Below are positions 41-37,929 of a stretch of 64,000 bases of DNA, in pieces. Source of the DNA: Micromonospora sp. WMMA1363 (GTDB lineage Bacteria; Actinomycetota; Actinomycetes; Mycobacteriales; Micromonosporaceae); the NCBI RefSeq assembly GCF_030345795.1, contig NZ_JAUALB010000001.1, forward strand, positions 310,001-374,000, in the 5' to 3' direction. Numbering within the stretch: the stretch's first letter is position 1; every line of letters begins with the position of its first letter. A model generated the notes under the pieces. That model was not told the origin of the DNA. It worked only from the letters and a program-made list of their open reading frames with translations, and searched no databases. The translations under genes were made by a program, and so were the position numbers.

Positions 41-952
41 TCAGGACGACCCGCGGTACCCCCCCGTGGCCGCTGGTGTACCCAGCTGCCAGCGGAGGCG
101 CGCCTCGCGTAGCCGGGCGATCATCTCCGGCCAGCCCGGCGGGCGGTAGCCGGTGGCCGCGGCAAGAGCGTCGGCCGACAGCGACCGGTCGCAGACGAAG
201 CCGTCGAACGGAACGATCTCGCCGGTCCAGGCGTACTCCGCCGCGATGAGGCGGAGCAGGTCGAACTTTGGTATCGGGCTCGCCGCCACGTGGTACAGGC
301 CGGCGAGGTCCGTGCGCGGCAGTACCACGGTGCGCAGCAGCCAGGCGATCTCGACCGTCGTCACCCCGCTGTAGATCGCCTTGGTGTAGCCCCGCACCAC
401 CGCCGACTGCGTGAGGAACCAGTCGACCAGGGACCGGTTCGACGTGAGTTCGTGACCGATGATGGACGTCCTGAGCGTCAGCGCTCCGCCGTAGGTGGCC
501 TCGCCCAGCAACTTCGACCGACCGTACAGGTCCGTTGGGTCGGCCGGGTCGGTCTCCTGGTAGTTGCCGCGGTCACCGGAGAACACACAGTCCGTGCTGA
601 CCTGGATCAGACGGGCACCGACCTGGTCGCATTCGCGGAGGAGCACGTGGGGGAACAGGGCGTTCAGCGACACCGTCTGGACGGCGTCCTGGACCTCCGG
701 GCGCTGCTTGACGACCCCCACGCAGTTGACCACCGCGTCCGGCCGGACGCGGTGCAGCAGACGCCGGATCCCGTCCGCGTCCAGCGCGTCCACGCCGGTG
801 GTTATCCGGCCGGCCAGGTCGGCCGGGAAGAGTGTGGCCACATTCGGTACCCGCGCCGCCCCGCGGACGTCGACCGCGAGGTCGCGGGCGAGCTCCCGGA
901 TCAGGGTGTGGCCCAGCATCCCGGTGGCACCGAGGACGAGAACGCGGATCAT
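41..952 (-). CDS. RmlD-like NAD(P)-dependent nucleotide-sugar reductase (WbvR/WbjC role)
   Basis: A 303-residue extended SDR protein. It shows the Rossmann motif GATGMLG at residues 8-14, STDCVFSG at 119-126 and the catalytic YGRSK (YxxxK) at 143-147. In the L-FucNAc and L-QuiNAc pathways such a reductase acts on the 4-keto product of the dehydratase/5-epimerase, which is encoded two genes upstream. FnlB/WbjC/CapF enzymes carry an extra C-terminal cupin domain; this protein ends at normal RmlD length and has none, so it resembles WbvR of the L-QuiNAc route. Its ATG overlaps the stop of the glycosyltransferase gene as ATGA (949-952), which indicates translational coupling in one operon. A dTDP-rhamnose reductase role is possible, but no other rml gene is visible. 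The family call is secure; the substrate is inferred from neighbours. Confidence 0.85.
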   Translation of the reverse strand: MIRVLVLGATGMLGHTLIRELARDLAVDVRGAARVPNVATLFPADLAGRITTGVDALDADGIRRLLHRVRPDAVVNCVGVVKQRPEVQDAVQTVSLNALFPHVLLRECDQVGARLIQVSTDCVFSGDRGNYQETDPADPTDLYGRSKLLGEATYGGALTLRTSIIGHELTSNRSLVDWFLTQSAVVRGYTKAIYSGVTTVEIAWLLRTVVLPRTDLAGLYHVAASPIPKFDLLRLIAAEYAWTGEIVPFDGFVCDRSLSADALAAATGYRPPGWPEMIARLREARLRWQLGTPAATGGYRGSS

Positions 953-2264
953 CCTGTCTCCTTGTCTCGGCGGGTGGGCGCGCCAGGTCGCCGTCCGGCC
1001 CTGGCCAGCAGGTCGGCGAGAACCTGTGCGTTGATCGCCTCGCTCATGTGCAGCAGGTAGTGGTGCCGGCCGGCGTCGCCCATGGTCCGCAGTCCGTCCG
1101 CCGGCGTCGCCCGTGCCCGCCGGACGACCGCCGCCAGGCCGGCGGGATCGCCCGGCGGAGCGGCGAGGCCGGCCCCGGCGCTCGTCACGATCCGGGCCGC
1201 GTCGCCGGGTGCGCAGACGAGGGCGGGTCGGCCGCAGGCGAGGATCGCCTGGACCTTGCCCGGCAGGGTGATGTGGAACAGCGGTTCGTCGGCCAGACAG
1301 ACCAGTTGGAGGTCCGCCGCCGCCATGGCGGCCGCGATGCGGTCCGGGCCGATCTGGTCGACGAAGTGCACGGTCGGCAGCCGTCGAGTGAGCGCCCGCT
1401 CCCGCAGCAAGGGCCGCTGGACTCCGTCGCCGACCAGCACCAGATGCACGTCCGGCAGGTCCCGCAGGTGCTCCATGGCCTCGACGGCGACGTCCAGTCG
1501 CTGCGCGACGCCGAGGTTGCCGGCGTACATGACGACGAAGTCGTCCCGGCTGAGGCCGAGCCGCGCGCGGAACACCGGGTCCGGCTCGGTCGGCTGCATC
1601 ATCTTCTCGTCGGCCCAGTTGTAGACCACCGACACCTTTTCCGCGGGTACCCCCCGCGCCACCAGCGTCTCCCGCAGCCCGGGGAGGGGACGGTGACGTG
1701 GTCGGCCCACCGGTACGCCTGGTCGGTGAACCGTCCCAGGGTCCCCTGGGCGAGGCGACGGCCCGGCCGGCCGGTGAGGAAGCCCGTGGCGAAGACCGAG
1801 TCGGGCCACAAATCCATCGCCATGAGCACGTACGGGGTGCCCCAGCGGATTCGTGCGGCCATCGCCGCGGTGGCGGCGGTGACGGGGGAGCCGTAGACCA
1901 GTGCCACGTCGGCGGCGCGCAGCAGCGGGCGGCCGAGAGCGGTGGACGAGGCGGCCCAGGTCAGGTAGTTGGCGGCGCGGCGGAGCGCTGAACGATCGTG
2001 GCTCGGGTACAACGGGGACCGCAACACCCGGAGGCCGTCCTGACTCTCCACGTACCTGCGGTGCGCCCGGTAGCCGGGGTGGACGATGCCGGTCGGGTAG
2101 TTGGGCACCCCCGTCAACACGTCCACGTCGAAGCCGTATCCCCGCAGGCAACGGGCGATGCCCAGGGGTATTCCGGTGGGCTCCGGGGGGAACCACTGGC
2201 TGACCAGTGCCACCCGTCGGCCGCTCACGGGTGCCCGGCGGCCCGGACGCGCCACGGCGCTCAC
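949..2264 (-). pseudogene. GT4 glycosyltransferase, WbuB-like, interrupted by a one-base frameshift
   Basis: Two overlapping reading frames together give a full-length GT4 protein of about 438 residues. The N-terminal half starts MSAVARPG with the acceptor-domain motif SQWFPPEPTG and runs to about 1680. The C-terminal half continues in another frame from RETLVARGVPAEKVSVVYNW and contains the donor-domain features MYAGNLG, LVLVGDG and PGKVQAILACGRP. Adding one C or G in the cccgggg run near 1678-1684 joins them as SPGLRETL. The GTG start (2264-2262) overlaps the stop of the upstream dehydratase as GTGA. WbuB-type enzymes add L-FucNAc or L-QuiNAc as second sugar to a lipid-linked amino sugar, which fits this locus. 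The frameshift is either real inactivation or a sequence error; the latter seems likelier because both halves look undecayed. Confidence 0.8.
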
Positions 2265-3310
2265 GCGGGCGTGGCGACGGTCGGCGCGGCAAACCCGTCG
2301 AGGTGCGCGCGCACCTCGGGCAGGGTCCGCAGCAACTCCATGACCTCGGCGACGTCCAGGCGCCGGGCGTTGTGCGAGTGGTAGTCGACCCGGTGGTCGC
2401 GGTTGGTGTCCCCCTCCTCGAAGTAGAGGGCGTAGTTCAGGTCACGGCTGTCGACGGGTACCCGCAGGAAGTCGCCGAGGTCCTCGGCCCGGGCCAGGTC
2501 CTCCCGGCTGGCCAGGGTCTCGTAGAGCTTCTCGCCGTGTCGGATCCCCAACACGTCGAACTTCGCCGGCACCCCGAACAGGTTGCACAGCGCCGTGGCC
2601 AGGTCCCCGATCGTGCAGGCGTCCGCCTTGCGGATGAACACGTCGCCCGGCTGGCCGTGATGGAAGGCGTGCTCGACCAGTTCGACCGACTGCTCCAGGG
2701 ACATCAGGAAGCGGGTCATGGTCGGCTCGGTCACGGTGAGCGGCACTCCGTGACCGATCTGTTCGATGAACAGCGGGATGACGGATCCCCGGGAGTACAT
2801 GACGTTGCCGTAGCGGACGCAGCAGACCCGGGTCCGGGCACCCGGGTTGTTGCGAGCGTGCGCCTGGGCGACCTTTTCCATCAGGGCCTTGGTCATCCCC
2901 ATCGCGTTCACCGGGTAGACCGCCTTGTCGGTGCTGAGTAGCACCAGGGCCTCGACACCGTTGCGCTCGCAGGCGTCCACCACGTTGGCGCTGCCCAGCA
3001 CGTTGGTCCGGACCGCCTCGAGGGGAAAGAACTCGCACGAGGGTACCTGTTTGAGCGCGGCGGCGTGGAACACGTATTCGACGCCGCGGCACGCCTTCAC
3101 GGTGCTGTCGTGGTCGCGGACGTCACCGACGTAGTACCGGACCCGATCGTCCCGCAGCCGGTGGCGCATCGTGTCCTGTTTGGACTCGTCCCGGCTGAGG
3201 ACGCGTACCTCGGCGGCTCCGGCGTCGAGCAGGCGGGAAACCATCGTCTGGCCGAACGAGCCGGTCCCGCCGGTGATCATGAAGCGTCGGCCCGATAGCG
3301 AGGACGTCAC
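2261..3310 (-). CDS. UDP-GlcNAc 4,6-dehydratase/5-epimerase, FnlA/WbjB/CapE family
   Basis: A 349-residue short soluble member of the CapD/polysaccharide-biosynthesis SDR family. GGTGSFG (14-20) binds NADP; STDKAVYP (126-133) with MGMTK (137-141) forms the characteristic active site in which Met replaces the usual SDR Tyr. The family converts UDP-GlcNAc by 4,6-dehydration and 5-epimerisation to UDP-2-acetamido-2,6-dideoxy-L-arabino-4-hexulose, the first step to UDP-L-FucNAc or UDP-L-QuiNAc. It has no N-terminal membrane segments, unlike the PglF-type enzyme at 4729-6588. The GTG start is preceded by GGAGGAG four bases upstream. It is the first gene of a three-gene minus-strand operon (dehydratase, GT4, reductase). 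The divergent C2-epimerase supplies the last enzyme of the pathway. Confidence 0.9.
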   Translation of the reverse strand: MTSSLSGRRFMITGGTGSFGQTMVSRLLDAGAAEVRVLSRDESKQDTMRHRLRDDRVRYYVGDVRDHDSTVKACRGVEYVFHAAALKQVPSCEFFPLEAVRTNVLGSANVVDACERNGVEALVLLSTDKAVYPVNAMGMTKALMEKVAQAHARNNPGARTRVCCVRYGNVMYSRGSVIPLFIEQIGHGVPLTVTEPTMTRFLMSLEQSVELVEHAFHHGQPGDVFIRKADACTIGDLATALCNLFGVPAKFDVLGIRHGEKLYETLASREDLARAEDLGDFLRVPVDSRDLNYALYFEEGDTNRDHRVDYHSHNARRLDVAEVMELLRTLPEVRAHLDGFAAPTVATPA

Positions 3311-3543
3311 ATCTCCTCCAGTAATCCCCCGTACCGGTCACGGGAGTCGCGGTCGCGTTGTAAAGGACACTACTGCCAAAGAACGAAGCAACAGCAATAA
3401 AAGAGTCAAAGAGAACTAACCTCGTAAAACCGGAAGGTTGTCGCTTTGGGGTGGCCACGACCAGCGTGTACCCGAGGTCGTTTGGTTCAACGATCGACAG
3501 TTGCCGGCGGAAGCGGAGTCGGCTCGACGGAAGGCACACCCTC
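3311..3543. promoter_or_regulatory. AT-rich divergent promoter region between the two L-amino-sugar transcription units
   Basis: This 233-bp gap separates the minus-strand dehydratase operon from the plus-strand epimerase. About 3355-3430 is strikingly AT-rich for this genome, with runs such as caataaaagagtcaaaga. Divergent promoters are expected here, but no -35/-10 pair is clear enough to place. Confidence 0.5.
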
Positions 3544-4668
3544 ATGACCCGCGTGATGACGGTGGTGGGCACCCGGCCGGAGATCATCCGGCTCTCCCGG
3601 GTGATCGCCCGGCTGGACGAGGCGGTGGACCACGTGTTGGTTCACACAGGACAGAACTGGGACAGCTCGCTGTCCGACATCTTCTTCACGCAGCTGCGGA
3701 TCCGCGAGCCAGACCGGTTCCTCCGCGTCGATACCTCGTCCCTCGGCCGGGTGCTGGGTGGCGTGCTGGTGGGAGTGGAGAACGCGATCGCCGAGCTTCG
3801 GCCGGACGCCCTGCTCGTCCTCGGCGACACCAACAGCTGCATCGCGGCGCTGATGGCCCGGCGGATGCGGGTGCCCGTCTACCACATGGAGGCGGGTAAC
3901 CGCTGCTTCGACCTCAACGTCCCGGAGGAGACGAATCGTCGGCTGGTCGACCACGTCGCCGACTTCAACCTGGTCTACACCGAGCACGCCCGGCGCAACC
4001 TGCTGGCCGAGGGGCTGCACCCGCGGCGGATCCTGCACACCGGCTCGCCGATGCGCGAGGTGCTGGAACACTACCGGGCGGGCATCGCCGCCTCGACTGT
4101 CCTCCGTCAGCTGGAACTCAGGCCCGGCCACTACTTCCTGGTCAGTGCGCACCGGGAGGAGAACGTGGACCGCCCGGACCGGCTTGCGCGGCTGCTGGAC
4201 TGCCTGCAGGCGGTCCGCGATCGCTGGGGGTTCCCAGTGCTCGTCTCGACGCACCCGCGGACCCGTAAGCGGCTGGAGGCGCTGGCTCCGAACACTACGG
4301 TGCTCGACGGCATCGCCTTCCACGAACCGTTCGGCCTGCTCGACTACGTGCACCTTCAGACACGGGCATACTGCACGCTCTCGGACAGCGGCACGATCAG
4401 CGAGGAGGCGGCGATCCTGGGCTTCGCCGCCGTGACGCTACGCGAGTCGATCGAGCGGCCGGAGGCGTTGGACGCGGGCGGCATCGTCATGACCGGCCTC
4501 GACCCGCAGGGTGTGGTGGAGGCGGTCCAGGTAACCGTCGACCAGGTCGCTGCCCACGGGGTGCCGTGCCCGGCCGACTACCGGGTCCCGGACACCTCCC
4601 GGCGGGTGCTCGACTTCATCCTGTCCACCGTGCGGCGACATCACGACTGGGCAGGCGTCCGCCGCTGA
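3544..4668 (+). CDS. UDP-N-acetyl-hexosamine C2-epimerase, WecB-like (WbjD/FnlC/WbvD role)
   Basis: A 374-residue protein of the non-hydrolysing UDP-GlcNAc 2-epimerase family. Typical motifs are VVGTRPEIIRLS near the N-terminus, HTGQNWD, GDTNSCIAALMARR, HMEAGNR, VPEETNRRLVDH, SAHREENVD and SDSGTISEEA. The ATG at 3544 is preferred over the longer frame from 3451 because it begins exactly at the family N-terminus and follows ACGGAAGG. WbjD/FnlC/WbvD members epimerise UDP-2-acetamido-2,6-dideoxy-L-talose or L-mannose at C2, giving UDP-L-FucNAc or UDP-L-QuiNAc. The divergent dehydratase and reductase point to this role rather than ordinary UDP-ManNAc synthesis. A WecB function cannot be excluded from sequence alone. 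Confidence 0.88.
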   Translation: MTRVMTVVGTRPEIIRLSRVIARLDEAVDHVLVHTGQNWDSSLSDIFFTQLRIREPDRFLRVDTSSLGRVLGGVLVGVENAIAELRPDALLVLGDTNSCIAALMARRMRVPVYHMEAGNRCFDLNVPEETNRRLVDHVADFNLVYTEHARRNLLAEGLHPRRILHTGSPMREVLEHYRAGIAASTVLRQLELRPGHYFLVSAHREENVDRPDRLARLLDCLQAVRDRWGFPVLVSTHPRTRKRLEALAPNTTVLDGIAFHEPFGLLDYVHLQTRAYCTLSDSGTISEEAAILGFAAVTLRESIERPEALDAGGIVMTGLDPQGVVEAVQVTVDQVAAHGVPCPADYRVPDTSRRVLDFILSTVRRHHDWAGVRR

Positions 4669-4678
4669 TTCCGGTGAC

Positions 4679-4720
4679 CGGAGCGGGCCGGCGACCCACG
4701 GAGGTCGCCGGCCCGCTCCG
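4679..4720. terminator. Bidirectional hairpin between convergent epimerase and PglF-like genes
   Basis: A perfect 18-bp inverted repeat (4679-4696 with 4703-4720) and a 6-nt loop lie between two convergent stop codons (4668 and 4729). There is no T tract, as is common for actinomycete terminator-like hairpins. Confidence 0.75.
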
Positions 4721-4728
4721 TGCTGACG

Positions 4729-6588
4729 TCACCGGGAGAGTGGCACCTGGACCACGGGTCGCACCGACGGGGCGCACAGCTGCGCGAGCTGGGCCACGAT
4801 CTTGTCCGGATCGGCGTACGGGTCCAGACCACTGACCTCCAGTGGATCCAGTACCGGCACCGTGACGTGGGAGATCAGTGGATGCAGCGGGCGGTCGTCC
4901 ACCTCGCCGGCGCCGAACAGGTCCTCGTGCAGCTTCTCACCGGGCCGTAGTCCGGTGTAGACGACCGGCACTGTGCTGGCCGCCTGCTCGGCCAGTTGGC
5001 GGGCCAGGTCGGCGATGCGTACCGGCTCACCCATGTCGAGCACCAGCGCCTCCCCGTCCCGGCCGATCTCAGCGGCCTGGAGCACCAGGTGCACCGCCTC
5101 CTGGACGGTCATCAGATAGCGGGTGACCTCGGGGTGCGTGACGGTCAGCGGGCGACCGGCCTCGATCTGCCGCTGGAACGCGGTGACCACCGAGCCGCGG
5201 CTGCTCAGGACGTTGCCGAACCGGACGCTGAGGAAGGTGCCGGGGAAGCGGTGCGCGGCGTGCGCGGTGAGCCGCTCGGTGATCCGCTTCGAGTAGCCGA
5301 GGACGCTGACCGGGGCAGCGGCCTTGTCGGTGGAGATGTTGACGAACTTGGCGACGTCCCGGCACGCGTCCAGCACGCTGAGAGTGCCCCACACATTCGT
5401 CAGCACGGCCTCGCCCGGATGGCGCTGCAGGAGCGTGAGGTGCTTCAGGGCCGCGGCGTGGAAGATGACGTCCGGTCGGCGCTCCCGGACGATCCGCCGG
5501 ATGCGCTCGTCGTCGCGGAGGTCGGCGAGGATCAGCTCGGGCCCGTCGAGCAGGGCCCGCCCGTTCAGTGACATCTGGAGGGCGTGCAGGGCCGACTCGT
5601 CACGGTCGAGCATCATCAGCTCGCCCGGGTCGGCCTTCATGACCTGCCGGCACAGCTCCGACCCGATGGACCCGCCCGCGCCGGTGACCAGCACCCGCCG
5701 GCCGGTCAGGCCGTTGCCGCTCAGCGGTAGCTCGCCGACCACCTGGCGGCGGCCGAGCAGGTCGCTGATCTGCACGTCCCGCACGTCGGTCACGGTGATC
5801 CGGTGATCGACCAGGTCCCGGACCGGTGGCAGTATCTTGAACGCGGCGCCGGTCCGCAGGGTGGCCTCACGGATCTGCCGGATCAGCTTGGCGTCGGCGT
5901 TGGCGACCGAGAAGATCAGCGTGGTGGCGCCGGTACGGCGGACCGCCTCGGCAATGTCCCGCCGGCTGCCGAGCACGCGCACTCCGCCGACGCGCAGGTT
6001 GCGCTTGTCGGGATCGTCGTCGAGCGCGCCGACCGGCAGGTACCGGCTACGGGGGTCGCCGAGCATCGCCCGCAGCAGGCCCTGGCCGGCGTCGCCGAGG
6101 CCGAACAGCAGCACCGGCGTCGAGGAGCGGACGTCGGGACGCATCGCGAGGTCGCGACGGTGCCGGTAGGCGAACCGGGCCGCGAGCATGAACAGCAGGG
6201 CCAGCGCGCCACCGACCAGCGGGGTGCTGACCGGGACCGGCCGGTCGGGCGAGGGCAGCAGGGCGACCAGCAGGACGCCCGACGTGGTGGTGGCGGTGCC
6301 GGCCAGCCCCTGCACCTCCTGGAGAGTCCCGAGCGGGTGCCGGCCCGAGTGGAGCCGGCGGACCGCGGCCACGACCACGTACATCAGCGCGGCGATGCCA
6401 CCGGCGGTGGCCGCCCGGCCCAGCTGACCCGGAGGCGGGTGGAACTCGTACCGCGCCCAGACGGCGGCGACGAAGCCGCCGATCCAGGCGGCGGTGTCGG
6501 TCGCGAGGAATCCCAGGGCGCGGCGGCGAGCCCGGGCCCGGCGGGATCTCTGGGCGACGCGTTCAGCGGTTCCGGTGTCCAGCGGCAT
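4729..6588 (-). CDS. Membrane-bound UDP-GlcNAc 4,6-dehydratase, PglF/WbpM/FlaA1-like
   Basis: About 619 residues with three parts: N-terminal hydrophobic segments (four predicted membrane helices, roughly residues 20-150), a nucleotide-binding domain with FGLGDAGQGLL, and a C-terminal SDR domain with VTGAGGSIGSEL and STDKAAAP. The PglF family converts UDP-GlcNAc to UDP-4-keto-6-deoxy-GlcNAc at the membrane. The position usually held by Met in MxxxK is Leu here (VLGYSK), a conservative change. The start at 6588 is chosen over 6642 because GGGAG lies seven bases upstream, whereas 6642 has no ribosome site. It follows the PglD-like gene by 144 bases, so it may be in the same operon or have its own promoter. 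It is the first enzyme of the proposed bacillosamine route. Confidence 0.88.
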   Translation of the reverse strand: MPLDTGTAERVAQRSRRARARRRALGFLATDTAAWIGGFVAAVWARYEFHPPPGQLGRAATAGGIAALMYVVVAAVRRLHSGRHPLGTLQEVQGLAGTATTTSGVLLVALLPSPDRPVPVSTPLVGGALALLFMLAARFAYRHRRDLAMRPDVRSSTPVLLFGLGDAGQGLLRAMLGDPRSRYLPVGALDDDPDKRNLRVGGVRVLGSRRDIAEAVRRTGATTLIFSVANADAKLIRQIREATLRTGAAFKILPPVRDLVDHRITVTDVRDVQISDLLGRRQVVGELPLSGNGLTGRRVLVTGAGGSIGSELCRQVMKADPGELMMLDRDESALHALQMSLNGRALLDGPELILADLRDDERIRRIVRERRPDVIFHAAALKHLTLLQRHPGEAVLTNVWGTLSVLDACRDVAKFVNISTDKAAAPVSVLGYSKRITERLTAHAAHRFPGTFLSVRFGNVLSSRGSVVTAFQRQIEAGRPLTVTHPEVTRYLMTVQEAVHLVLQAAEIGRDGEALVLDMGEPVRIADLARQLAEQAASTVPVVYTGLRPGEKLHEDLFGAGEVDDRPLHPLISHVTVPVLDPLEVSGLDPYADPDKIVAQLAQLCAPSVRPVVQVPLSR

Positions 6589-6732
6589 ATCTGACTCCCG
6601 TTTCCGACCGCTTCCACCCGAGGGGTAGAAGGAGTGCGACATTTGTCGTTGTTACAGCGTCGAGCGCGACGTTCGGACGTTCTGCCGTCAGACGCGCTCC
6701 GTTCAGCCGCGCAGGCCGCCGGCGGGGACCGG

Positions 6733-7371
6733 TCAGCGTGCGGGGACCCCCTTGACCACCACGCCGTCCGGCACGTCGCGCACCACGCAGGCGCCTGCCC
6801 CGACGGTGCTGTCCCGCCCGATTCGGCGACCCTGCAACACCGCCGCCGTGGTGCCCACCAGCACGCCCTCCGCCAGGTGGCAGTCGCCGGAGACCGCGGC
6901 CAGCGGGTTGACCGAGACGAAGTCGGCGAGCACGCAGTCGTGGCCGACGGTGGCATTCTGGTTGAGGTGAACGTGCCGACCCAGCGTGACGTTGGTGGTG
7001 ACCCGGGAGCCCGGGAACGCAACGAATCCTGGTCCGTACCGGGTGTCCGGGTCGACCGTGGCGTCCGGGTGGATCAGGCTCGCGGCGGGCGTACGGTACG
7101 GCTCGACCCGCTCGGCGACCGCGCGGCGCACCCGTGGGTCCCCGATCCCGACGACGTGGTGGGTGTCCGGCGGTGCGTCGCGCAGCCAGGCGAGCCCTCC
7201 CAGATACGGCACGTCCAGACGGTGCGCCCGCTTGAGGTTCTCCTCGGTGGGGCGGTCGTCGACGAACCCGGCCAGGTGCCAGCGGGGTCCGCCGGCGGTG
7301 ACCACCGCGCGGGCGATGGTCAGCACCTCCCGGCCATGGCCGCCACAGCCCACGATCACCAGCGGTGTCAC
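6733..7371 (-). CDS. PglD/NeuD-like sugar O/N-acetyltransferase
   Basis: A 212-residue left-handed beta-helix acetyltransferase. It begins TPLVIVGCGGHGRE, the sugar-nucleotide binding N-domain of PglD, and continues with hexapeptide repeats including HPDATVDPDT, NQNATVGHDC (catalytic His) and VVKGVPAR at the end. The GTG start at 7371-7369 overlaps the aminotransferase stop as GTGA; the longer upstream frame to 7557 reads through the aminotransferase in another frame and is rejected. PglD acetylates the 4-amino group of the aminotransferase product, giving UDP-N,N'-diacetylbacillosamine. Membership in the NeuD/PglD/perosamine-acetyltransferase family is clear; the bacillosamine substrate is inferred from neighbours. 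Confidence 0.88.
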   Translation of the reverse strand: MTPLVIVGCGGHGREVLTIARAVVTAGGPRWHLAGFVDDRPTEENLKRAHRLDVPYLGGLAWLRDAPPDTHHVVGIGDPRVRRAVAERVEPYRTPAASLIHPDATVDPDTRYGPGFVAFPGSRVTTNVTLGRHVHLNQNATVGHDCVLADFVSVNPLAAVSGDCHLAEGVLVGTTAAVLQGRRIGRDSTVGAGACVVRDVPDGVVVKGVPAR

Positions 7372-8515
7372 GCGGAGGACGCTCCGGTCCGGATGGTCAG
7401 GAACTCGTCGATCGCACCGAGTACGGCACCGAACTGGCGCTCGGTGAGCGCGCTGCCGCTGGGCAGCGTCAGCCCCCGGGCGAACAGGTCGTCGGCGGCG
7501 CCGCTGAGCAGGCTCTCCGAGCCGGTGTACGCGGGCTGCCGGTGCATCGGCTGCCACACCGGACGCGTCTCGATGTGCCGGGCGGTGAGGTGGGCGGCCA
7601 GGTCTGCTGCCCGCCAGCCGGAGCGCTCCGGGTGGACCCGGATGACGGTGAGCCAGCAGTTCGACGTGGGGTCGTCCGCGCCGAGCAGGTCGACGCCGGG
7701 CACCGGGGCGAAGAGTTTCGCGTACCGGTCCCGTAGTTGGCGACGTCGGCTGATCATTCCGTCCAGCCGAACCAGCTGGGCCCGGCCGAGTGCGGCCAAC
7801 AGGTTGCTGAGCCGGTAGTTGAAACCGGTCTCCCGGTGCTCGTAGTGCACCGTGGGCTCGCGCGCCTGGGCGGCCAGGTGCCGGGCCCGGTCCAGCAGTG
7901 CCAGGTCGTCGGAGACGAGCATCCCGCCGCCCGAGGTGGTCATGATCTTGTTGCCGTTGAAGGACAGCGCGCCGACCCGGCCGAACGAACCCGCGGCCCG
8001 ACCGCGGTGTGCGGCGCCGAGCGCCTCGGCGGCGTCCTCCACCACGGGGACGTCGGCGTCCGCGCAGAGGGGCAGCAGAGCCGTGTAGTCCACACAGCTG
8101 CCGAACATGTCCACCGGGACCACCGCGCCCACCCGGTCACCCCGGCGTGCAGCCGGTGCAGCAGCTCGCCGACGAGGGCGACGTCGACGTTGCCGGTACG
8201 CGGATCGCAGTCCACGAAGACCGGGCGGGCGCCCGTGTAGCGGACCGCGTTCGCGGTCGCCACGAAGGTCAGCGTGGGGACGATCACCACGTCCTCGGGA
8301 CCGACGCCCACTCCGAGCAGGGCCAGGTGCAGCGCCGCGGTGCCCGAGCTGACCGCCACCGCCCCGTCCGTGCCGACGCGGGCGGCGACCTCGCGTTCGA
8401 AGGCCTCCAGATCCGGACCGGCGGGCGCGACCCAGCCGGAGCGCAGGGCGGCGACGAGGTACGACTCCTCCAGCGGCCCGACGTCGGGCGGGGAGAGGTG
8501 CACGGTGCGCGTCAT
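7368..8515 (-). pseudogene. DegT/DnrJ/EryC1 aminotransferase, PglE-like, interrupted by a one-base frameshift
   Basis: Two frames jointly encode a complete PLP-dependent sugar aminotransferase of about 382 residues. The N-terminal part (8515 to about 8140) has SGWVAPAGPDLEAFE and SSGTAALHLALLGVG. The C-terminal part (about 8140-7368) has PVDMFG, VVEDAAEALGA and the PLP-lysine motif FNGNKIMTTSGGG. One missing C or G near 8136-8141 (accggg on the coding strand) separates them; restoring it gives GVTRVGAVVPVDM. Its ATG overlaps the sugar-transferase stop and its stop overlaps the PglD-like start, so the operon is otherwise intact. PglE aminates UDP-4-keto-6-deoxy-GlcNAc. If the frameshift is real, bacillosamine synthesis is broken at this step; sequence error is the simpler reading. 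Confidence 0.85.
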
Positions 8516-9315
8516 CGCCGTCCGCCCTGCCGTACCGTCACACGTGGGGTGGTCGCCCCGGCGATCCGGGTCTGCGGCAGCGGTCCCTCGCTGGGGTCGA
8601 CCGGCAGCGCCACGCCGTCGACGACCAGTGCGGTCTGTGTCGCCGCTTCAGTCGGCGGCATCGGACCGGGTGGCGTACCGAGAAATGCCGGAGCGGTGGC
8701 GACACCGGCAGCCGAGATCCCCTCCCGGTGCAGCACGGTACGAACCGTCGCGGCGAGGATCGACACGTCCATCCGGAGGGTGCGGGTATCGACGTACTCC
8801 ACGTCCAGGTCGAACTTCTCCTTCCAGCTCAGCTGGTTGCGACCGTGGACCTGGGCGAGACCGGTGACCCCCGGCCGTACCTCGTGCCGACGGGCCTGCC
8901 GCGTCGAGTAGCGGGGCAGGTATTCGGGCAGCAACGGCCGGGGGCCGACGAGACTCATGTCGCCGCGTAGCACGTTCCAGAGCGTGGGCAGCTCGTCCAG
9001 GCTGGTGGAGCGCAACCAGCGGCCCAGGGGTGTCAGCCGGTCGGCGTCGCTGACCAGGCCGCGGCGGAGGTCCGGCGGGCGCATGGTCCGGAACTTGACC
9101 AGCTCGAACGGCTCGCCGTGACGACCGGAGCGGCACTGGCGGAACAGCGCGGGGCGGCCCAGGCCCGCGGCGACGAGCAGCGCGACGGCCACCATCACCG
9201 GCGCCAGCAGCACGATCAGGAGAAGCGCCACGACGAGGTCGAGCACTCGCTTCCCCCGATCCGGACGTGTCGACCGGGGTGGCCTCTCCGGTGTCACCAC
9301 AGCATGGACCGGCAC
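8512..9315 (-). CDS. Initiating phosphoglycosyl transferase, PglC-like bacterial sugar transferase
   Basis: A 267-residue monotopic sugar transferase. One membrane segment (about 23-50) is followed by the family motifs FRQCRSG, VKFRTM, the catalytic Asp-Glu in SLDELPTLWN, GDMSLVGPRPL and VRPGVTGLAQVHGRNQ. PglC members transfer phospho-diNAcBac from UDP to undecaprenyl phosphate, starting glycan assembly at the inner membrane face. About 65 C-terminal residues after the core are extra, Pro/Ala-rich and of unknown role. The GTG start is supported by GGGAGG nine bases upstream. It is the first gene of the operon and overlaps the PglE-like gene by four bases. The exact sugar (diNAcBac, QuiNAc, FucNAc) is inferred from the linked genes. 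Confidence 0.88.
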   Translation of the reverse strand: MPVHAVVTPERPPRSTRPDRGKRVLDLVVALLLIVLLAPVMVAVALLVAAGLGRPALFRQCRSGRHGEPFELVKFRTMRPPDLRRGLVSDADRLTPLGRWLRSTSLDELPTLWNVLRGDMSLVGPRPLLPEYLPRYSTRQARRHEVRPGVTGLAQVHGRNQLSWKEKFDLDVEYVDTRTLRMDVSILAATVRTVLHREGISAAGVATAPAFLGTPPGPMPPTEAATQTALVVDGVALPVDPSEGPLPQTRIAGATTPRVTVRQGGRR

Positions 9316-29393: not shown

Positions 29394-29478
29394 CCTCTGA
29401 GGTTACGGCGTGCCGGCCCGCGGTTCAGCCGCTACCGTCGGCCGTCGGCCAGGCGCCCTCCGCTGGATCTGCTGCTGT

Positions 29479-29553
29479 TTCCCGGAAGGAACTGGATCTG
29501 TTGTGTCACAGAAGGAGTGGCCATCGAGCCTCGATGGCCACTCCTTCCGGGAA
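29479..29553. terminator. Nested inverted repeats upstream of the YciI gene
   Basis: A near-perfect palindrome pairs 29511-29528 with 29530-29547 (18 bp around one base). A second, competing pair joins ttcccggaagg at 29479-29489 with its complement at 29543-29553. The structure lies past the stop of the gene at 29583-30220 and before the YciI start. It probably terminates the upstream gene; the two exclusive folds could act as an attenuator. Confidence 0.6.
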
Positions 29554-29582
29554 CCGTGCACGCTCGCTGATGGCGGTGGGTG

Positions 29583-30220
29583 TTAGGCGGCGGTGGTCCA
29601 GAGGGACTGGAAGGCTGCGGCCTCGCCAGCCAGCCAGCGTTCGATCTCCTCCGGTTTCGCGCCGACCGGCATCTGGTGGGCCCGACCGCGCCGCACGTCG
29701 ACCAGGACCGGCTCGGCGTGCGGCAGGACCGCCGGGCCATCAGGTGCAGGGTGGCCAGCACCGCCTCGTCGCTGGGCGGCGCCTCGTCGAAGTGCAGGCG
29801 GACCGCCTCGGCGCGGCCGTCGGAGTGGCGCACGCCGAAGTGGGGGTTGATCTTCACCGGTAGGTCGCCCAGCACAGCGAGCGCGTCGCGTGTCTGGGCC
29901 AGGTCGACCGACCGCGGCTCGCCGAGGGCGCGCAGCCAGGCCGTGGCTCCCGGCGCGAGCGCCTGGTACAGCGGGCGCCAGCGGGGCTTGACCGTGTTGA
30001 CCACCTGTTCGAGGTGGGTGCCCTCGGTGTGGAAGGCGATGTCGGCCTTGAGCGCCCTGACGAACTGGCCGTGCGGGTTGAAACCGGAGCGGCTGGCCCG
30101 CTGCCGGCGCAGGCCGCCGACGAAGGTGGCCTTGGTCGGTCCGGTGCGGGCCACGTACCGGGTGAAGCCGAGAAGCGTGGCGTAGGGGGCGAGTGGGGTG
30201 GCGGAGGTGGGCGTGCTCAC
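29583..30220 (-). pseudogene. Unrecognised conserved-looking protein with a one-base frameshift
   Basis: About 212 residues in two frames. The first frame runs from the start to LHLMA near 29737 and the second continues PAVLPHAEPVLVDVRRG to the TAA at 29583. One missing C in gccc(c)gg on the coding strand joins them as LMAPAVLPHAEP. I do not recognise the family; the protein has no membrane segment and includes GFTRYVARTGPTKATFVGGL, FNPHGQFVRALKADI and KINPHFGVRH. The GTG at 30220 is preferred, because GGGAGG abuts the ATG at 30226 directly but lies six bases from the GTG. Codon bias stays normal on both sides of the break, which suggests a recent indel or sequence error. Confidence 0.6.
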
Positions 30221-30226
30221 GGACAT

Positions 30227-30584
30227 CCTCCCAGGTCAACTGCTCTATTAGTACATACATTCTAATCGACGGTGCTGACATTTCCAGGTGCTTGGTGCCC
30301 CCACCGCCGTCACCGGCCCAGCTGTCCGGGATGTCCCGGTGGGCTGTCGACGGTGACCGCCATGACCATGCCTCGTCCCTCGACCGGTCGATCGGCCGTT
30401 ATTTGTATGGCTCTGTCTTCTTCGTGCACCATCTTCGGTTTCATGTCGTGATGGGTGGGGTACCCGCTTAACCCGCGGTGTGGCTGCTACCGCCTGCCTG
30501 GTAGCCGAGGAGCGGCCACCTGCGTCTCTGCCCGGGGTTGGTTGGTTCCTCGTCCGTGACGGGGTTGAGGACACCGAGACCACG
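30227..30584. other. 358-bp interval with promoter-like AT-rich stretch
   Basis: No gene is supported. The left end (30240-30262) is unusually AT-rich (ctattagtacatacattct) and probably carries the promoter of the minus-strand gene. The region 30390-30450 is also AT-richer, and may hold the promoter of the plus-strand beta-helix-like gene. Confidence 0.45.
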
Positions 30585-37269: not shown

Positions 37270-37929
37270 ATGGCCACGTCACGCGCCTCCCGGCCGGCCG
37301 CCCGCGCGGCTCGCCGCTCACCGTGGTCGGTCCCGCTGGCCGTGGTGCTGGTGCTGGTCGGGGTGTTCGCGACCGGAGCCGGGCTCGGGCGCACCGTCGG
37401 CCCGCTGGACTGGACCCCGACGGCCACCGCCGACCGGCCGGCCCGGAGCGCGCGGGGTGGCCTGGTCGCCAGCCGCCCGGTGCGCCTCGCGGTGCCCGCC
37501 ATCGAGGTGTCGGCACCGGTCGAGCCGGTGGGCCAGGCCCGGGACGGTTCGATCGCCGTACCGCCGCTGGAACGCGTCGAGGAGACCGGCTGGTACGACC
37601 ACGGCCCCACCCCGGGGGAGCCGGGTTTCGCCGTCATCGTCGGTCACGTCGACACCAAGAGCGGCCCGTCGGTGTTCTACGACCTGCACAGGCTGCGTCC
37701 GGGAGACACCATCGAGGTGACCCGCGCCGACCACACGGTGGTGGTGTTCCAGGTGGACTCGGTGGAGCGCTTTCCGAAGGACCAGCTCCCCGCCGACCGG
37801 GTCTACGGTGCCGATGGGCCGCCGCGACTGCGCCTGATCACCTGCGGCGGCGACTGGGTGGGCGGGCGCACCGGTTACGCCGACAACGTGATCGCCTTCG
37901 CCACGATGACCACCTCCCATATTCCGTGA
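37270..37929 (+). CDS. Class F sortase
   Basis: A 219-residue sortase. It has an N-terminal signal-anchor helix (about 20-40) and the catalytic domain with His in VIVGHVDTK, Cys in RLITCGGDW and Arg in GRTGYADNVIAF. Class F sortases are transpeptidases typical of actinobacteria; their substrates are poorly known. The upstream gene encodes a secreted protein with a C-terminal membrane helix and is the obvious partner. Confidence 0.92.
   Translation: MATSRASRPAARAARRSPWSVPLAVVLVLVGVFATGAGLGRTVGPLDWTPTATADRPARSARGGLVASRPVRLAVPAIEVSAPVEPVGQARDGSIAVPPLERVEETGWYDHGPTPGEPGFAVIVGHVDTKSGPSVFYDLHRLRPGDTIEVTRADHTVVVFQVDSVERFPKDQLPADRVYGADGPPRLRLITCGGDWVGGRTGYADNVIAFATMTTSHIP

Follow-up and report, generated by a model that had tools for sequence, protein, structure and literature searches.

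Several published glycan loci bear on the one described here. The O-polysaccharide cluster of Flavobacterium psychrophilum has PglF-, PglE- and PglD-type genes, a PglC homologue (WfpB there), fnlABC and Wzx/Wzy; its WbuB homologue, WfpA, adds the L-sugar to the Qui2NAc4N residue (PMC6519341). In O-antigen clusters, including those of Plesiomonas and Escherichia coli, FnlA, QnlA (described as a dTDP-4-dehydrorhamnose reductase) and QnlB were assigned to N-acetyl-L-quinovosamine (L-QuiNAc), activated with uridine diphosphate (UDP), whereas FnlABC were assigned to UDP-N-acetyl-L-fucosamine (UDP-L-FucNAc; PMC6467956). A glycan cluster of the giant virus Moumouvirus australiensis is proposed to have pathways for both UDP-N,N′-diacetylbacillosamine (UDP-diNAcBac) and UDP-L-QuiNAc (PMC10117803). 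In Actinoplanes missouriensis, which belongs to the same family as Micromonospora, the imp genes have been proposed to form a Wzx/Wzy polysaccharide cluster; imp mutants lose or distort the sporangium matrix, which shows that the cluster is required for it (PMC12691653). Here we describe a locus that appears to combine a diNAcBac pathway, an L-QuiNAc pathway and Wzx/Wzy genes in Micromonospora sp. WMMA1363 (genome of 6.48 Mb in 20 contigs). It was found in a stretch of 64,000 nucleotides, called the window below (G000:C1:310001-374000; contig NZ_JAUALB010000001.1).

We read this locus as a Wzx/Wzy polysaccharide locus with two rare sugars, whose L-QuiNAc/L-FucNAc half is exchanged across Micromonospora, and give this explanation as a whole a probability of about 0.7. 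It is built on the observed gene classes, their position and pairing pattern, trees and one breakpoint; each chemical step, and a polymer as the product, are predictions from these. The locus belongs to a known kind, the Wzx/Wzy polysaccharide locus, and the point of interest is its population pattern.

The likeness to the F. psychrophilum cluster extends to the gene types listed above; the latter differs in being a Gram-negative O-antigen cluster with a 4-N-acyl instead of an acetyl group, L-FucNAc made via FnlB, and L-rhamnose as the third sugar (PMC6519341). With fnlA-qnlA-qnlB (PMC6467956) the locus shares a dehydratase/5-epimerase, a reductase of the dTDP-4-dehydrorhamnose reductase type and a C2-epimerase, but the host group is different, and the Micromonospora epimerase gene lies on the opposite strand and partly groups with the L-FucNAc type. 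CapE- and CapG-like proteins are shared with the UDP-L-FucNAc route of Staphylococcus aureus (CapE/CapF/CapG); the window has an RmlD-like reductase in place of CapF, whereas relatives have all three Cap types at the same locus. Like the Pgl systems of Campylobacter and Neisseria, the locus has PglF, PglE, PglD and PglC types, but it has Wzx/Wzy genes instead of an STT3-type PglB, which was not found in the source genome. The accessible text on Moumouvirus makes no claim of a lipid-linked Wzx/Wzy system (PMC10117803), and that on the imp cluster names family 4 and family 2 glycosyltransferases (GT4, GT2), ImpC and ImpE but no diNAcBac or L-QuiNAc genes (PMC12691653).

The frequency of these genes was assessed at strict limits, which miss weaker copies (E <= 1e-110 for CapE, 1e-75 for the reductases, 1e-50 for PglD). 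The PglD type was found in 95 of 160 Micromonospora genomes and the CapE type in 106. At the family level the CapE type was carried by 110 of 300 sampled genomes and by 13 of 44 genera; this sample came from a wider group and shares many genomes with the Micromonospora set. The first-pass annotation, made from the window alone, had called such a glycan start unexpected in an actinomycete; these counts contradict it. PglD and CapE types occurred together in 66 of the 160 genomes (62.9 expected by chance), and a strict coupling of the two pathways was rejected on these figures. Where both were present they lay less than 20 kb apart in 63 of 66 genomes. The diNAcBac and L-sugar sets are therefore two modules at a shared address, not one obligate pathway.

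The L-sugar module occurs with two alternative reductases, the RmlD type (34/160 genomes) and the CapF type (75/160). Among 112 CapE-type copies, 34 had an RmlD-type and 74 a CapF-type reductase within 4 kb, none had both, and four had neither. One genome of 5.1 Mb (G148) has both L-sugar types at separate places (L156-L157), the CapF one beyond the glg genes. Identity to the CapE-type protein of the window is 77-100% in the RmlD-reductase group and 65-75% in the CapF group. The GT4 follows the same division: identity of its N-terminal part is 70-80% in seven RmlD-type loci versus 42-52% in CapF-type loci (10 of 13 with both parts found).

Trees of the CapE type, PglF type, Tex and the epimerase were made from named loci only, excluding rows with partial hits. 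In the CapE-type tree (21 rows) each reductase type forms one side of a branch with support 99/99. The PglF-type and Tex trees (15 rows each) have the two types mixed, and their starred branches force at least three changes. A comparison of two species, one with an RmlD-type locus (L051) and one with a CapF-type locus (L052), gave 13.9 kb of collinear sequence at 91.7% identity that stops at the 5′ end of the epimerase gene; past this breakpoint the CapE-type gene alone is recognisable, inverted and 73.5% identical. The pair L048 and L056 has the same pattern at lower identity. Of 13 genomes whose loci were mapped, six have Tex on one side; NAD kinase and/or pgm-glgC-glgA stand on the opposite side in ten. 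In the remaining genomes the stretches retrieved did not show these flanks.

Together, the trees and the sharp breakpoint suggest that the half comprising the CapE type, reductase, glycosyltransferase and Wzx/Wzy is swapped between species at one site, which is flanked by tex and by NAD-kinase/pgm/glg genes, and that the diNAcBac genes remain in place. In this the arrangement resembles a capsule-type locus, the diNAcBac half being constant and the second-sugar half variable. For the epimerase, recombination is only suggested: the genes of the window and of M. thermarum (the closest named relative of the window, whose nearest relatives are Micromonospora) stand among L-FucNAc-type rows with fork support 92/93, and the starred branches are compatible with a single origin. 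We put forward, tentatively and at slightly under even odds, a serotype-like Micromonospora locus at a recurrent site, with the L-QuiNAc/L-FucNAc half switching horizontally and the diNAcBac starter half staying with the species. Pressure from phages or glycan-binding rivals would then be probable, although any selective force behind the exchange is speculation. If the reading is true, O-antigen- or capsule-like typing extends to a soil actinomycete. Micromonospora is a major antibiotic-producing group whose surface glycans are poorly described in the open-licence literature searched, and no account of this locus was found there (mostly titles and abstract beginnings). The two predicted sugars can be looked for chemically, and the two reductase types offer a natural test of the enzyme that decides between L-QuiNAc and L-FucNAc.

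The genes in the window form the larger part of what looks like a Wzx/Wzy-type surface-polysaccharide locus. As predicted at first pass, the cluster continues to the left: the adjoining 4.3 kb hold another GT4 gene, a Wzx and a Wzy gene. The proposed leftward search for a flippase, a polymerase or an oligosaccharyltransferase thus yielded the first two, in one cluster as in Wzx/Wzy-dependent systems. For the third, STT3 (PF02516) had no match at E <= 0.001 in the 99.98% complete genome, while the same search was positive in 4 of 14 control genomes. No Pfam family matched the polymerase by itself, and its fold match is weak; with its AlphaFold2 model Foldseek alone found no significant PDB match.

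In the proposed pathway UDP-N-acetylglucosamine (UDP-GlcNAc) would be converted to UDP-diNAcBac by the PglF, PglE and PglD types, and the PglC type would put the diNAcBac phosphosugar on undecaprenyl phosphate; the lipid-linked start postulated earlier is thus supported by the gene classes. The CapE-like, RmlD-like and CapG-like enzymes would convert UDP-GlcNAc to UDP-L-QuiNAc, the WbuB-type GT4 would add L-QuiNAc as the next sugar, and the GT4 left of the window would add at least one more. The unit would be flipped by Wzx and then polymerised by Wzy; wall attachment, if any, would be carried out by LCP proteins encoded elsewhere. A sugar order of this kind, with L-FucNAc and a 4-N-acyl variant, was proposed for F. 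psychrophilum (PMC6519341).

Table 1. The eight genes at 41-9315 of the window; seven are on the minus strand, and the C2-epimerase gene alone is on the plus strand.
Predicted product	Position	Strand	Matches
RmlD-like 4-keto reductase, 303 aa	41..952	-	PF04321 93 bits; TIGR01214 87.8 bits
WcaI/WbuB-type GT4 glycosyltransferase, split	949..2264	-	NF007640, N and C parts on two frames
CapE/FnlA-type UDP-GlcNAc 4,6-dehydratase/5-epimerase	2261..3310	-	4j2o, 3vvb; PF08485; TIGR04130
CapG/FnlC-type non-hydrolysing C2-epimerase	3532..4668	+	4hwg, 7ya2; TIGR00236
PglF-type membrane-domain UDP-GlcNAc 4,6-dehydratase, 620 aa	4729..6591	-	5bju; PF02719 308 bits
PglD/NeuD-type sugar N-acetyltransferase	6733..7371	-	TIGR03570; PF17836; 4m98
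PglE/LegC-type (DegT) aminotransferase, split	7368..8515	-	TIGR04181, PF01041, N and C parts on two frames
PglC-type phosphoglycosyl transferase (Bac_transf), 267 aa	8512..9315	-	PF02397 203 bits; 8g1n/8e37

Gene classes were assigned by family profile scans (Pfam, NCBIfam) and matches to solved proteins, that of the GT4 by profiles only. This evidence supports the four diNAcBac-type steps named in the first-pass annotation, and the placement of the PglE, PglD and PglC types in a pathway was checked via their nearest solved relatives. The PglF-type protein has a membrane domain and a dehydratase, and its best solved match is 5bju (WlaL = PglF; 214 bits versus 142 for the next other type), an entry named as PglF in the accessible text of PMC7725333. 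The PglC-type protein matches the diNAcBac-1-P transferase (8g1n/8e37) with 186 bits and the WbaP type with 113. The PglD-type protein passes the TIGR03570 cut-off with 194.8 bits; its scores against solved acetyltransferases (4m98, a pilin glycosylation protein, 96; VioB 93; PerB 81; C. jejuni-type PglD 49 bits) are such that the substrate is not set by sequence. The C-terminal piece of the PglE-type protein scored 163 bits with 1o61 and 160 with 4ztc, both of which we take to be C. jejuni PglE, versus 53 bits with PseC-type 2fn6. The source genome has a second NeuD/PglD-type acetyltransferase, 38% identical, at G000:C1:606416-607042. M. thermarum has an additional PglF-like gene, flanked by NAD kinase and pgm (contig position G173:C2:109117-110854); no such gene was found at the matching place in the genome of the window.

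While the classes in the first-pass list of eight genes were upheld, two of the genes are not single open frames. The frame of the GT4 gene changes near 1670-1690 (overlapping frames 1599-2264 and 949-2292) and that of the PglE-type gene near 8132-8144 (frames 7940-8515 and 7368-8132). With two of eight genes split, the cluster could be decaying in this strain, both breaks being true losses and no product being made. We regard this as unlikely. Among 52 loci of relatives examined, the PglE-type gene was unbroken in 50 of 50 cases and the GT4 gene in all 18 with both halves found on one strand; in the source genome the other six cluster genes have open frames. Nearby genes are split as well: a homology test with M. 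thermarum as the reference found four of the 58 testable open reading frames (ORFs) to be split in the source genome, although one of the four may differ in start only. They include glgE (L004:4618-6794, some 13.2-15.4 kb to the left of the window), which is broken by a frame change here and intact in M. thermarum, and a minus-strand gene at 29435-30281 of the window, split near 29732, the two pieces of which had no family match in the NCBIfam scan. The reverse test of 57 M. thermarum ORFs flagged two, both due to splits of the source genome itself, and hence gave no independent case. The GT4 break was not flagged by the homology test, the M. thermarum ORF having probably been removed by the composition filter.

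Frame plots gave four breaks in the 64 kb window, one in the 40 kb to its left and seven in a 200 kb sample of the source genome, compared with five in 200 kb of a control genome (G002); relatives had 13 breaks over 379 kb and 22 over 991 kb. With seven versus five breaks per 200 kb the source genome is not clearly in excess of the control, so generally poor assembly is not proven. Because this count is noisy, it can neither lend support to sequence error nor rule it out; the better guide is the homology test. The favoured reading is that the GT4 and PglE-type splits are possibly sequence errors.

The three-enzyme route to an L-6-deoxy-amino sugar, also noted at first pass, is supported by profile scans and solved-protein matches. 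The CapE-type protein scored 398 bits with both 4j2o and CapE 3vvb versus 205 with 2gn4 (FlaA1/PseB type), and carries the C-terminal domain PF08485 (65.6 bits). Strict FnlA identity is not claimed, because the protein falls short of the FnlA equivalog TIGR04130 (424 bits, cut-off 730). Pseudaminic acid was rejected as a product: the CapE type is far above the PseB type and the PseC-type match is weak. The C2-epimerase matched 4hwg (349 bits) and CapG 7ya2 (346 bits) versus WecB 1vgv (122 bits); it exceeds the cut-off of TIGR00236 with 224.8 bits and is of the non-hydrolysing type.

The nearest solved proteins of the reductase are RmlD-type proteins and MAT2B, but it fails the RmlD equivalog TIGR01214 (dTDP-4-dehydrorhamnose reductase; cut-off 224). 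The Pfam scan found no cupin domain PF14667 in it, whereas the CapF/FnlB type consists of a short-chain dehydrogenase/reductase and a C-terminal PF14667 in about 370 residues; a 375-residue Cap5F-like protein with PF14667 often stands in its place in relatives. In belonging to the RmlD family and adjoining a CapE-type gene it is a probable counterpart of the QnlA/WbvR type. Given an RmlD-like reductase without PF14667 and the published assignments of QnlA and FnlB, L-QuiNAc is favoured over L-FucNAc as the second sugar, and the reductase is the putative UDP-N-acetyl-L-rhamnosamine former on the UDP-L-QuiNAc route. Of the two sugars offered at first pass, L-QuiNAc is thus the preferred one. That the second sugar is nevertheless L-FucNAc, or could equally be either, seems improbable. 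CapE- and CapG-like enzymes do serve an L-FucNAc route in S. aureus, and the CapF route is frequent in Micromonospora; but a CapF-type reductase had no match at E <= 1e-75 anywhere in the source genome, and the CapE-type and glycosyltransferase genes of the window cluster with those of RmlD-type loci.

Least probable is that the diNAcBac genes serve another product, legionaminic acid or PglB-type protein N-glycosylation, and merely share an address with the polysaccharide genes: the PglE-type protein has the LegC family as its best NCBIfam match and the two pathways co-occur at chance level, but legionaminic acid was dropped on finding no NeuB (PF03102) match in the genome (same search positive in 9 of 14 control genomes) and N-glycosylation on finding no STT3, the C2-epimerase is non-hydrolysing, the PglC-type gene overlaps both the PglE-type gene and the following operon gene, and the two pathways are close neighbours in nearly all genomes that have both.

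Two further features were recorded. A class F sortase is encoded at 37270-37929 of the window (NF033748, 204 bits). Elsewhere in the genome, at G000:C1:4313914-4330178, the gene for a long Bac_transf protein, with an open frame of 530 aa, is separated by some 15 kb from two LCP genes, perhaps as part of another cell-wall glycopolymer locus.
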